Shown: positions 32,830 to 36,462 of the stretch, one piece after another
Layout: each line of letters opens with the position of its first letter
How positions within the stretch are numbered: the stretch's first letter is position 1
DNA from: Blastopirellula sediminis
GTDB lineage: Bacteria; Planctomycetota; Planctomycetia; Pirellulales; Pirellulaceae
Direction: 5' to 3'
Length of the DNA: 64,000 nt
Assembly: GCF_020966755.1 (NCBI RefSeq)
Contig: NZ_JAJKFT010000004.1
Coordinates: forward strand, 868,001 to 932,000
Translations under genes and position numbers: made by a program
The notes under the pieces: generated by a model
Databases searched by the model: none
The model's input: only the letters and a program-made list of their open reading frames with translations
Told to the model about the DNA's origin: nothing

Positions 32830-33909
32830 ATGGCTTCACGTCGTCTCGCCGTCATCGGCGCTGGTCACCTCGGTAAAATTCATGCTCGCCTGGCCAAGCA
32901 AACGGCCGGGCTCGAGCTGGTCGCGATCGTCGATCCGATCGCCGCCGCCCGCGAAGCGGCCGCCGCCGAAAATGGCGTTCCGGCTTACGCTTCGCATCGC
33001 GAAATCTCCGGCGAATTTGACGCCGCGATCATCGCCACGCCGACGCAGTATCACTTTGGCGTCGCCGCCGAACTGCTTGCCGACGGCGTCGACCTGTTGG
33101 TCGAAAAACCGATCACCCTCTCGATTACTGACGCCGATCAACTGTTGGCTCTCGCCAAAGTGCATGGTCGCGTCCTGCAAGTCGGACACGTCGAACGGTT
33201 CAACCCGGCCTTCGTCGCCGCCGCTGAGTTGATCGATCGTCCCCGCTATATCGAAGCGGCTCGCACCAGCGGTTATTCGTTCCGCTCGGTCGACATCGGC
33301 GTGACGCTCGACCTGATGATTCACGATATCGACCTCGTCTTGTCGCTGGTCGGCAGTAGCGTCGTCAATGTCGATGCGATTGGCGCTTCGGTCTTTGGTC
33401 CGCACGAAGATATGGTCCAGGCCCGGCTGACGTTTGAAAACGGCTGCGTCGCCAACCTGACCGCCTCGCGCAGCAGCTTTCAGCCGCGCCGCGAAATGAA
33501 GGTCTTCCATGCCGGCGGCTTCGTCCAGATCGACATGGGAAGCCGCAAGTTGCAGTCGATCCAGCCTGATCCGCGCCTCGCGGCCGGCGAACTTGACGTC
33601 CATACGCTTCCGCAAGCCGAAAAAGACCACATCCGTCAGCATCTGTTCGAGTCGCTGTTGCCGCTCGAAGAAGTCGAACTGCCGCCGACCAACGCGATCG
33701 CCGACGAACAAGCCGACTTTGTCCGCGCCATCGAAACCGGCAGCAAACCACGCGTCGACGGCTTTGCCGGCCGTGACGCGGTGATCGTCGCCGAAATGGT
33801 CGCCAAATGCGTCGAGCGCCACGTCTGGCACGAAGCCGGCCGCAGCCTCCGCGGCCCCCACTTCACCGCGATGCCGCAACTGGCCCCGCAAACCCGCGAA
33901 GCCGCGTAG
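32830..33909 (+). CDS. Gfo/Idh/MocA-family NAD(P)-dependent oxidoreductase
   Basis: The 359-residue product has the Rossmann start LAVIGAGHLGKIHARLAKQ and the family signature VEKPITLSITDADQLL (the EKP motif). The helix-strand tract with VDIGVTLDLMIHDIDLVLSL follows, containing the substrate-site His-Asp. ATG at 32830 is preferred; the frame opens at 32788. Members oxidise or reduce sugars at NAD(P). Its place 73 bases after lpxC suggests work on a UDP-sugar or a lipid A/core sugar. GnnA, which oxidises UDP-GlcNAc for modified lipid A, belongs to this superfamily, but this link is only inferred from position. Confidence 0.85.
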   Translation: MASRRLAVIGAGHLGKIHARLAKQTAGLELVAIVDPIAAAREAAAAENGVPAYASHREISGEFDAAIIATPTQYHFGVAAELLADGVDLLVEKPITLSITDADQLLALAKVHGRVLQVGHVERFNPAFVAAAELIDRPRYIEAARTSGYSFRSVDIGVTLDLMIHDIDLVLSLVGSSVVNVDAIGASVFGPHEDMVQARLTFENGCVANLTASRSSFQPRREMKVFHAGGFVQIDMGSRKLQSIQPDPRLAAGELDVHTLPQAEKDHIRQHLFESLLPLEEVELPPTNAIADEQADFVRAIETGSKPRVDGFAGRDAVIVAEMVAKCVERHVWHEAGRSLRGPHFTAMPQLAPQTREAA

Positions 33910-33946
33910 GGAAAAAGCGGAGAGTTGAGAGCGATAGGGACGAGCT

Positions 33947-33985
33947 GGCGCCATGCTCTTGCGGCGTCTTCGCCGGATGAGCATG
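33947..33985. repeat. solo copy of repeat family A
   Basis: This 39-base unit (GGCGCCATGCTCTTGCGGCG... ending GATGAGCATG) matches the right arm of the 519-624 element in inverted orientation with one difference, 33 kb away. Confidence 0.75.
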
Positions 33986-34020
33986 TCTTCGCTCTGCCAA
34001 ATAGCACCATCAAACACTAA

Positions 34021-34040
34021 CCCGAGGCGCAAGCCGAGGG
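34021..34040. repeat. solo copy of repeat family G
   Basis: CCCGAGGCGCAAGCCGAGGG occurs here as a single 20-base unit. It differs at one base from the unit at 39014-39033. Confidence 0.7.
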
Positions 34041-34110
34041 AATATGCGCGCAAGCAGACGTTTGGGCCCGCTGTCTCTCAGCCACAAACCGGTCTCCAAA
34101 AAATGGGACC

Positions 34111-34559
34111 GGACCGCAGCCCATTTTTTTTCAAACCGGGTGGCCCGTCCAGCAAACGTAGGGCAGGCCATGCCTGCCGTCGCTTGGCGCCGAATCACCT
34201 CGGTAGGCACGGCCTGCCCTACGACTGGGCTGGACCGCTCGTGCGATTTTTTTTGCGGCCCATCTGCAATCGTAGAGCCACAGTCGCCGCAGCTTGCCAG
34301 GTCTGCGCATCATGTGGACCGCGTCGCGCATTTTTTTTAAATGGACCGGTCGCAAACTCCAACGATGACCACGATCGTCCCGTTGGTTGCACCGCATCTT
34401 CGCTAGTTCGCCTATCATGTGGACCGCTGCGGCCATTTTTTTCATCCCGAGTGGACTGGACTGCGCGCAATTTTTTTTGAACGACCATCCACCGAATCGA
34501 TCCGTCCCATTCATATCAAGCGAAGCCGATGAGTGGACTGGACCGCGATGAGTTTTTTT
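34111..34559. repeat. array of six TGGACCGC-N(5-8)-poly-T repeats
   Basis: Six copies of a motif GGAC(C/T)GC, then 5-8 variable bases, then seven or eight T occur at 34111-34131, 34231-34254, 34315-34338, 34420-34442, 34457-34478 and 34539-34559. Start-to-start spacing is 120, 84, 105, 37 and 82 bases. Most copies have extra upstream identity (TGTGGACCGC or GTGGACTGGAC). Read on the minus strand, all six fall in one reading frame and give peptides such as KKMAAAVHM, KKMRDAVHM and KKIARAVQ. The stretch between the copies is not conserved. Confidence 0.75.
34157..34223. repeat. inverted repeat, family F
   Basis: Arms 34157-34179 and 34201-34223 match at 21 of 23 inverted positions (unit CGTAGGGCAGGCCnTGCC), with an inner GGCAGGC/GCCTGCC palindrome and a 21-base spacer. 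It sits between the first two copies of the poly-T array. Confidence 0.72.
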
Positions 34560-34758
34560 CGCCAGGCGAAGCCTCCGCCGCTCGACCGCCAGAGGGGACA
34601 AGCTCGCTTCGGCCTGCCTAATTTCCAAAGAGCGGCACCGGCAAACCAATTCCGCCCCATCGCCGCCAGCCAGATCGCCGGCGAAAACTACCTGCCGGCA
34701 CCCCGAAATCGACCACGAATGCGTGCGCTTTGTCAATGGACAATGTTGTTAGGAGGAC

Positions 34759-35169
34759 ATGGAGCCGACGGCCGACCAGGTCGACCTGGATGAATCGCTA
34801 ATTCAAAATGGAGGATTGGCGTTTGCAAGCCTACAAAGTTTATGATTGGATAGTTGCCCCGATGAGAATTCCGAAGGAGTTGGTCGAACTCGTCAGCAAC
34901 GCGCAGATAAACGAGGTCTTCCCGTCCAGTTTGAATTTGAAGACAAAGCGTTCATTGTCGATGTCACGCTCTTTCTCGATCTCAATGACCCAGCGAATTT
35001 CGACCATGAAAACAACCGAAGTCGCGTTGCGAGAAACGGGGATGGTTTCTTTCTGTTTGTCGACCTTAAGGATGAAAAGCTAGGAATCCTGCAAGAAGAA
35101 TTCGGCGACGTCGACTTCCCAAGCGTAACCTTGTTTGACCTCCTCAAGGCACGCTGGACGCCAATTTAG
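34759..35169 (+). pseudogene. small gene interrupted by an in-frame TGA, unknown function
   Basis: One frame runs from ATG 34759 (MEPTADQVDLDESL) to the stop at 35169, broken only by TGA at 34843-34845. The part after the TGA reads like a normal acidic protein: LPVQFEFEDKAFIVDVTLF, FLFVDLKDEKLGILQEEFG, and SVTLFDLLKARWTPI at the end. I do not recognise the family. If intact it would be about 136 residues. Translation could instead restart at TTG 34846 directly after the TGA, giving 107 residues. AGGAGG lies at 34751-34756, unusually close (2 bases) to the ATG, so the real start is uncertain. Confidence 0.5.
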
Positions 35170-35264
35170 AAATGGCGTTGGCGGCGCTGAATAGCACGGC
35201 TGGAAATCGCAGTAGATTTAAGGCGTTTCCCATAGCTTTTCACCATCAAGCGACCCACAAGATC

Positions 35265-35690
35265 ATGCTTCGCACTTTAGTAATCGCGTTTCTACTCTTC
35301 ATCACCGGATGTGCGAACGAAGAGCCGGAGATTGAGATTCGAACACCACGAGGGGAACCGTTTGAGATGCCCATCGATGAAGCCGGCAGTAGCGCCCCGA
35401 TCCGGATCAACGTCATGATCCCGCAGCCGCTACAGCCGTTGGAGCGTGGCGAACGTTTTGAGCTGCCGTTGTGCGATCTCTTTGATGAGACGGACGGGGG
35501 CGATGTTGTCGGCGGGGGGACGATGCTCGAGCAGGGAAAAATCACTTCCGCGAATATCGAAATCGAAATCAACGACGAGTCGCTGCTGCCGAAGGTGATC
35601 GAGACTCTGCGGGCCGGAAAGGCGCCGGACGATACGGAGATCTCGATCGGGGAACCAATCAATCAGACGAAGTTGTTGCGCGATTTTTGA
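35265..35690 (+). CDS. small putative lipoprotein, unknown function
   Basis: ATG at 35265 gives a lipoprotein signal (MLRTLVIAFLLFITGCANEE), with FITGC as lipobox. The mature 125 residues are acidic, with PLCDLFDETDGGDVVGGGT and a C-terminal tract NDESLLPKVIETLRAGKAPDD resembling a small alpha/beta unit. No family is recognised. The frame opens further upstream at 35172 but without signal features. The next gene, also a putative lipoprotein, starts about 65 bases downstream on the same strand, so the two may form an operon. Confidence 0.65.
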   Translation: MLRTLVIAFLLFITGCANEEPEIEIRTPRGEPFEMPIDEAGSSAPIRINVMIPQPLQPLERGERFELPLCDLFDETDGGDVVGGGTMLEQGKITSANIEIEINDESLLPKVIETLRAGKAPDDTEISIGEPINQTKLLRDF

Positions 35691-35754
35691 TGAATCCGCT
35701 GGTGAAATCATGGCTATGGCGGCCGCGTTCCGTTTTCTCGCGAGAGGCTATCGG

Positions 35755-36462
35755 ATGGTGAATGTCGGGCGAATTGCTTACGTGTCGATGTTTCTCTTAC
35801 TTGTTTCGCTGGGAAAGGGATGCGCGTGTTCCCTCGATCGGTCCGCCAACACAAAGCTTGTCGGGAACACGCTTGTCGTTTCTGCGGAAGGACGGGATTA
35901 CACGTTTCCCAAATACATCGACTTCGACGGTCAGCAGTGGACGAGAAGCGATTGGCGTGAATCGCGTCATTTTGAGGGGGGCGTATGCGTTTACTTGGGG
36001 CAAGACGCCAATCAAAGGCTTACGTACCACCAAGATTCGCAATTGAAGGTGGGGTGGTCGCTGCAAATCGAAAGGCGAACTCGGCCTGGCGAGCCTTTTG
36101 TGCCGAAGGGGAAGAAGCGGCTGTTCGATAGCGAGAGCGAATGTATGTTTGATATGACTGTTGGAGAGAGCGGTTTTTTTGATGGCGCCGCTCGAAATTA
36201 TTATTCCAATGGCGTCGTCAAGCTCGATTGTATCTACGCGCCGGCGGCTGAATTGCAGGGGCCGGCGACAGGCTACTATCCCACGGGCTCGGTTTGGTGG
36301 ACCGGAGAGTTTCAACGCGATCGATTTGACTATGAGAACGCAAAGTTCTACGACGAAAGCGGGGGCGAGATTAAAGGCTTAAGTCTGGAGGAAAAAGAGA
36401 AACTCAAGCGGTCATGGAGCGATACGACGAGTAGTAGCTGGAAAGACTGTCGGCCGCAGTAG
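35755..36462 (+). CDS. putative exported or lipoprotein with MORN-like strands
   Basis: From ATG 35755 (AGAGG eight bases upstream) the product begins MVNVGRIAYVSMFLLLVSLG and a Cys-rich KGCACS, a probable lipoprotein or Sec signal; ATG at 35710 is an alternative start. The C-terminal half has NYYSNGVVKLDCIYA and GYYPTGSVWWTGEFQ, resembling the Y-x(2)-G-x-hydrophobic repeats of MORN/YwqK-like proteins. No catalytic motif is evident. Function unknown. It follows another small lipoprotein gene. Confidence 0.62.
   Translation: MVNVGRIAYVSMFLLLVSLGKGCACSLDRSANTKLVGNTLVVSAEGRDYTFPKYIDFDGQQWTRSDWRESRHFEGGVCVYLGQDANQRLTYHQDSQLKVGWSLQIERRTRPGEPFVPKGKKRLFDSESECMFDMTVGESGFFDGAARNYYSNGVVKLDCIYAPAAELQGPATGYYPTGSVWWTGEFQRDRFDYENAKFYDESGGEIKGLSLEEKEKLKRSWSDTTSSSWKDCRPQ

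Follow-up and report, generated by a model that had tools for sequence, protein, structure and literature searches.

Intergenic repeat arrays in Blastopirellula that share a start block and a joint tail with an AAA_25 ATPase gene family

The window, a stretch of 64,000 nucleotides from Blastopirellula sediminis, contains an intergenic array of six GGACCGC-type motifs with T-runs that belongs to a family of directional repeat elements, seen only in the genus Blastopirellula among the genomes searched. The family occurs in two forms, one with and one without a gene for an AAA_25 ATPase, and common to both are a start block, here called R, and a tail of repeated joints. From comparison of the sequences, the array in the window is best understood as a non-coding orphan copy of the tail of the ATPase gene. 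We consider it reasonably probable that this orphan member is transcribed with the aid of boxA and is kept through the action of the AAA_25 ATPase in trans. A coding C-terminal repeat apparently gave rise to free-standing non-coding loci at dozens of places in one genus; their start block is conserved, and some of them also have a ribosomal antitermination box. If transcribed, they would form an unrecognised kind of long non-coding RNA that is linked to a replication-type ATPase, in a phylum about whose RNA biology little is known.

The array in the window

A search of the whole window with the pattern GGACYGC-N5-8-T7 returned six matches, at 34111, 34232, 34316, 34421, 34458 and 34540, and none outside 34111-34559, in agreement with the six GGAC(C/T)GC-poly-T copies described in an earlier sequence-only reading of this DNA. 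The chance expectation, taken from the mean of dinucleotide shuffles, is 0.02 per window, and six matches were reached in 0 of 100 shuffles. Successive copies lie 121, 84, 105, 37 and 82 nt apart, and the earlier judgement that such uneven spacing does not fit a CRISPR holds; the even spacing of a CRISPR is absent, and unit types recur between arrays where a CRISPR has unique spacers. The features of the element are as follows, with the boundaries of the whole as we infer them.

34709-34736, minus strand: R block (TTGACAAAGCGCACGCATTCGTGGTCGA), from the alignment of 51 leaders, with a promoter-like TTGACA at 34736-34731 that is overlapped by the palindrome TTGTCcaTTGACAA
34620-34633, minus strand: boxA-like box GCTCTTTGGAAATT, a 12/14 match 103 nt from the start of R, by comparison with rrn leaders
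34540-34559, minus strand: joint 6, nearest to R, A7-N-GCGGTCC followed by AGTCCACTCATCG
34458-34478, minus strand: joint 5 (GCAGTCCAGTCCAC), with a short C-type unit
34421-34442, minus strand: joint 4 (GCGGTCCACATGATAGG), with an A-type unit
34316-34338, minus strand: joint 3 (GCGGTCCACATGATGCG), with an A-type unit
34232-34254, minus strand: joint 2, the unit of which contains an inverted repeat at 34157-34223
34111-34131, minus strand: joint 1, at the far end of the element, GGACC-GGACC (sense strand GGTCCGGTCC)
34096-34122, minus strand: terminator-like site at the far end, GGGCTGCGGTCCGGTCC then CATTTTTTGG, a weak assignment with three such sites in the region against 2.4 expected
34096-34736, minus strand: inferred whole element, R, boxA, six joints and far end, with a predicted untranslated transcript of about 600 nt

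The sequence-only reading had placed every copy in one minus-strand frame, which is true of some features of the copies and not of others. The left ends of the T-runs are in phase in five of six copies, while their right ends, at which the A-runs of the minus strand start, are divided three against three, and the GGACYGC cores between them occupy every one of the three phases. The long frame 34131-34736 is indeed open, but the TTG at which it starts belongs to the R block, as the first three letters of its TTGACA. As for the degenerate repeat protein proposed for the reverse frame, the strand and, apparently, the origin stand: KK-x-x-x-A-V-Q/H resembles the EKKxxxSPV(Q/H)S and EKKNPVQSN-type motifs in the C-terminal tail of an amplified AAA_25 ATPase. 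The locus itself is not an open repeat gene.

A family of directional arrays

In the search that the same reading had proposed, the motif recurs in the genome and in congeners. The genome that contains the window (G000, 7.05 Mb) holds 143 matches, 76 forward and 67 reverse, in which overlapping variants of one copy are counted more than once, against 0 for the reversed-pattern control. Three congeners, one of which is Blastopirellula marina DSM 3645 (G002), hold 40, 112 and 36 matches, against 3, 1 and 0 for the reversed control, and each of 56 other relatives searched holds five or fewer. From 100 of the 143 matches, the remainder of contig C10 being left out, 32 loci were studied together with the window. 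Within each of these 33 loci the copies all lie on one strand (there is only one copy in two of the loci), and between arrays the matches are overwhelmingly in the same orientation, with 1622 on the same strand and 26 on opposite strands. The direction of the arrays is not tied to that of neighbouring genes, called by codon score (+|+ 12, +|- 8, -|+ 7 and -|- 6).

The common core of 132 copies is (A)GTGGACT-GGACCGC-N3..9-T7/8-C, which on the sense strand gives a joint of A7-8, N, GCGGTCC and AGTCC (repeats of A7-8-N-GCGGTCCAGTCC); in the first core of many arrays GGACC-GGACC stands in place of GGACT-GGACC. The stretches between cores are recurring unit types (A, C, D and others) that are shared between arrays. 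Homology between arrays tends to begin and end in joint zones (0.65 of starts and 0.67 of ends, against 0.41 for random placements), a tendency that is uninformative on recombination because the joint itself is conserved. Intergenic palindromes of several repeated types (CGTAGGGCAGGCC, CGTAGGGTCCGC and others) lie between joints, at 34157-34223 in the window and in many other arrays, and are also found outside arrays. Short tandem GGAYN repeats of 20, 39 or 40 nt dominate some orphan arrays of G003 and G002 (L062, L067, L068, L071 and L106), and at two loci of B. marina (L054 and L056) a candidate IS-transposase-like gene interrupts runs of array units of about 260 nt each.

The R block

R lies beyond the last core in 24 of the 33 loci, always on the strand of the array. 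When up to two mismatches are allowed, the four species have 37, 29, 30 and 35 copies of it, and 195 other genomes of the family have none; the block in the window (G000:C4:902709-902736, minus strand) differs from the pattern by one mismatch. Among GTDB contigs, where the records of the window's genome were possibly left out, a stricter pattern was found only in B. marina DSM 3645, and the exact R was not found in viral contigs.

Loci fetched by R alone give the same association. Each of 17 new loci from three species carried same-strand GGAYN repeats beside R, and 16 of the 17 had a T-run joint. In a further 20, at least one joint pair lay within 900 nt at 14, the start of an AAA_25 gene was found within 900 nt instead of joints at four (L096, L097, L099 and L105), and neither was present at L107, which contains a masked stretch, or at L110. 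A broader collection of 80 distinct R blocks (at least 20/23) was classed into 69 without a gene, among them 61 with a joint and 25 with a boxA of at least 11/14, and 11 with a gene, none of which had boxA; three of the 69 (L131, L136 and L143) do have a gene by the locus-wise survey of ATPases. Because part of the 80 blocks had been chosen for having joints, the unbiased sets are the 17 and the 20. In two of the gene-bearing loci of G003, R is present in tandem before the ATPase gene, with three blocks in L096 and two in L097, about 240 nt apart and with a CACCCACCCTACG-type repeat between them.

The AAA_25 ATPase gene and its tail

The ATPase family linked to R and the joints occupies 11-16 loci per genome in the four Blastopirellula genomes (in G000, 21 matches amount to 14 loci). 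Of 14 other genomes of the family, two gave one distant match each and 12 gave none. AAA_25 scores above the Pfam cut-off in the proteins tested, and the DnaB N-terminal domain is found below the cut-off in some members. No solved relatives were found and no PADLOC defence model matched. There is no family match in the window, the only matches on C4 being at 170860 and 1375658; the joints of the window stand without the gene.

Of about 54 ATPase loci, 50 were examined (12, 14, 13 and 11 in G000, G001, G002 and G003). Joints lie downstream of the gene in sense direction within 900 nt at 43 of them and are missing there at seven, and within the same distance no antisense downstream and no sense upstream joint was found; an antisense upstream joint occurs at six loci, all in G000. 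At 38 of these 43 loci the reading frame of the ATPase stays open into the first joint, and examples of the C-terminal tails are EKKSQSSPL, QKKTTPSPVQS and repeats of EKKNPVQSN or DPVLSN. R lies upstream of the gene at 15 of the 50 loci, 14 of them in G002 and G003, and is missing at 35, including 14/14 in G001 and 11/12 in G000. Within a species, the joints of orphans and of gene tails prefer the same base at some positions (at the first, G in G000 and G001, with A more frequent in G002 and G003) and have different preferences at others; an A as sixth base, for instance, is found in 48 of 134 joints of G003 orphans and in three of 60 in tails.

BoxA and the sense strand

In 20 of 51 leaders (one of which, L077, follows a weak R match) a boxA-like box (GCTCTTTGACAATT, at least 11/14) lies after R, with none of the 51 having one on the other strand; 18 of the 20 boxes are 77-121 nt from the start of R. 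The box of the window, on the sense strand of its leader as expected of a boxA transcription unit, matches at 12/14, and family-wide such leaders are a minority, with no boxA of at least 11/14 in 31 of 51. The 15 leaders between R and an ATPase gene have none (best 10/14). BoxA acts in RNA, and the leader boxes thus suggest that the array is transcribed starting from R. The motif was first read on the other strand, and the sense strand of the array is probably the minus strand.

A comparable arrangement is seen in the rrn leaders of G003 and G002, where a 13/14 boxA (GATCTTTGACAATT) lies at -205 in one of two 16S operons each, about 100 nt after a promoter-like TTGACG-N16-TAGGAT (read by eye). 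The comparison rests on these two species because no 16S rRNA match was found in the window's own assembly, the completeness of which is given as 99.96. Among these operons (L092-L095) the other 16S operon of each species is without an upstream boxA. Passages of PMC7862264 describe boxA as acting in RNA and as present before both CRISPR arrays and 16S. Where a -10 should follow the TTGACA, R has only a poor match (GTCGAT, against TAGGAT in the rrn promoter, read by eye), so that R may act as a promoter or may be another kind of site.

No structured RNA emerged from the family: units of types A, C and D, leaders and R are without a conserved structure, and a structured-RNA reading is rejected. 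Rfam gave only matches below the gathering threshold for positions 33000-36000 of the window and six related loci.

Positional conservation

Seven protein pieces were used as queries, and counterparts were found for all but the two from L010 and L030; four sites from this query and the window make up the five sites compared (the window, L009, L033, L034 and L036). G001 has an array with R beside the same gene and in the same direction at 5/5 sites. G002 has arrays at three, with R at L034, without R at L033, and without R and in the opposite direction at L036, and none at the sites of the window and L009. In G003 there is an array with R at L034 and a partial array with an ATPase gene at the site of the window, no array at L009 and L033, and at L036 the genes are not adjacent. 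The contents of the arrays differ strongly between species. The loci are thus old, with interiors that change fast.

Origin and maintenance of the arrays

In the explanation that we prefer, the full form of the element, present at no more than 15 of the 50 gene loci, consists of R, the AAA_25 ATPase gene and a joint tail that usually starts inside the last codons of the gene, and the orphan form of R and the joint tail without the gene, with boxA in the leader in a minority. RNA polymerase would start at R and read leftwards in the window, and boxA/Nus antitermination would help it to traverse the array, as no ribosome protects an untranslated transcript. Recognition in trans by the ATPase of the full form may then be the reason why the array RNA, or the act of transcribing it, is retained. 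Several observations speak against this explanation: the lack of a conserved RNA structure in units, leaders and R, the poor -10, the leaders without boxA (31/51), the ATPase loci without R (35/50) and without a downstream joint (7/50), the six in G000 with an antisense upstream joint, and the partly different joint preferences of orphans and tails. A bolder version is put forward only tentatively, namely that this is a new RNA-ATPase element in which dozens of orphan loci per genome make array RNAs, some of them protected by boxA, and the ATPases bind, process or spread these in trans. Made up of the repeats at the 3' end of the AAA_25 gene, the RNAs would depend on the ATPases in the way that short non-autonomous elements depend on a long autonomous one.

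The main rival is a selfish element acting at the level of DNA, in which a mobile element has R and the end joint as its termini, the ATPase form moves autonomously, the orphans arose by internal deletion and are mobilised in trans, and RNA is a by-product. This we judge unlikely, with several observations in its favour: R (15/50 gene loci) and the joint tail (43/50) are common to both forms, ATPase copies at different places in G001 are 90-94% identical, each of the four genomes has more copies of R than ATPase loci, and G002 is without an array at two of the five sites. It leaves boxA unexplained, however, and neither a transposase inside the element nor, by eye, the terminal inverted repeats or target duplications of a MITE or other non-autonomous transposon were seen; because all five sites are occupied in G001, there has also been little recent movement.

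That the arrays are still coding, with a repeat peptide tail made in pieces and frame changes at the A7-8 runs, is improbable. In the AVQ/AVH frame third codon positions vary most in A units (p 0.026) and D units (p 0.011, or 0.004 from column 17), each tested in a single frame, and an 18-nt period is common in the tails of the ATPase genes (26 of 70 spacings under 60 nt). Corrected for three frames the values become 0.08 for A and 0.03 for D, a longer A stretch gives 0.24, and C and other unit types show no such variation. Among the 27 arrays that have three copies or more, 21 are interrupted by stops in every minus frame, and the distances between cores are of mixed phase (24, 41 and 31 with a remainder of 0, 1 and 2 modulo 3; n=96), on which grounds simple minus-strand coding is rejected for the orphan arrays. 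The third-position variation may be the trace of a coding origin or weak present coding, and together with the ATPase tails it suggests descent from coding DNA; it counts against a purely non-coding role, which does not predict it.

Arrays of protein-binding DNA sites (GGACTGGACC and T-tract) for a nucleoid or partition protein would suit a regular joint found at dozens of intergenic loci in a direction untied to genes, yet are quite improbable, as they leave boxA, R and the presence of joint sequence in the last codons of the ATPase unexplained. Intrinsic terminators in series on the plus strand, suggested earlier for the poly-T tails, are very improbable. A G+C-rich stretch does precede the T7-8, and 63 of 129 predicted folds have pairs adjoining the T-run (a count without a control), but folding is on average no better than that of shuffled sequence (mean z -0.27 for 45 nt and 0.10 for 28 nt; n=129), without the stable G+C-rich hairpin of a terminator, the runs are A-runs on the likely sense strand, and the direction is untied to genes. 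Chance low-complexity sequence has a negligible probability, contradicted as it is by the shuffles, the reversed control, the counts in congeners and the distribution of R, absent from 195 genomes.

Comparison with known systems

The earlier statement that no named system has this pattern agrees with our searches of Rfam for the region in the window, PADLOC for the linked ATPase and the open-licence literature, in which no paper on such arrays in Planctomycetes was found. Several systems are similar in part. In type III toxin-antitoxin systems RNA repeats lie beside a gene, and the C-type unit of the arrays is close to 36-37 nt; here, in contrast, the repeats follow the gene, the gene encodes an ATPase and the units vary. 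The leaders of rRNA operons, with promoter, hairpin and boxA, share the boxA sequence and its position, some 100 nt away from a TTGAC element, and differ in that the arrays are without rRNA and have a conserved spacer in R and a different -10. BoxA has also been described in the leaders of CRISPR arrays (Stringer et al., as cited in PMC7862264), which like the present arrays have a boxA leader before a long untranslated array of repeats in one direction, whereas the joints in Blastopirellula are unevenly spaced (35-358 nt), modules are shared between loci and the sequence is that of an ATPase gene tail.

REP/REPIN sequences with RAYT resemble the arrays in having many intergenic copies related to a multicopy gene; the part of PMC3733652 that treats palindromic repeats mentions Planctomycetes and does not name Blastopirellula. 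In contrast to the palindromic units of REP/BIME, the A, C and D units have no conserved hairpin or consensus structure, and the linked gene is an AAA_25 ATPase. A link to Y1 transposases would not be specific: Y1_Tnp is found in all four Blastopirellula genomes and also in G009, G013, G014 and G015, of which G009 and G014 have 0 and 1 motif matches. Finally, the DnaB-like and AAA_25 replication proteins of phages and plasmids (Pfam PF13481 and PF00772; PHROGs of primase/helicase type) share with the linked ATPase an AAA_25 domain above the cut-off, and differ from it in that the Blastopirellula genes are solitary and chromosomal, are amplified in one genus and carry a repeat tail.
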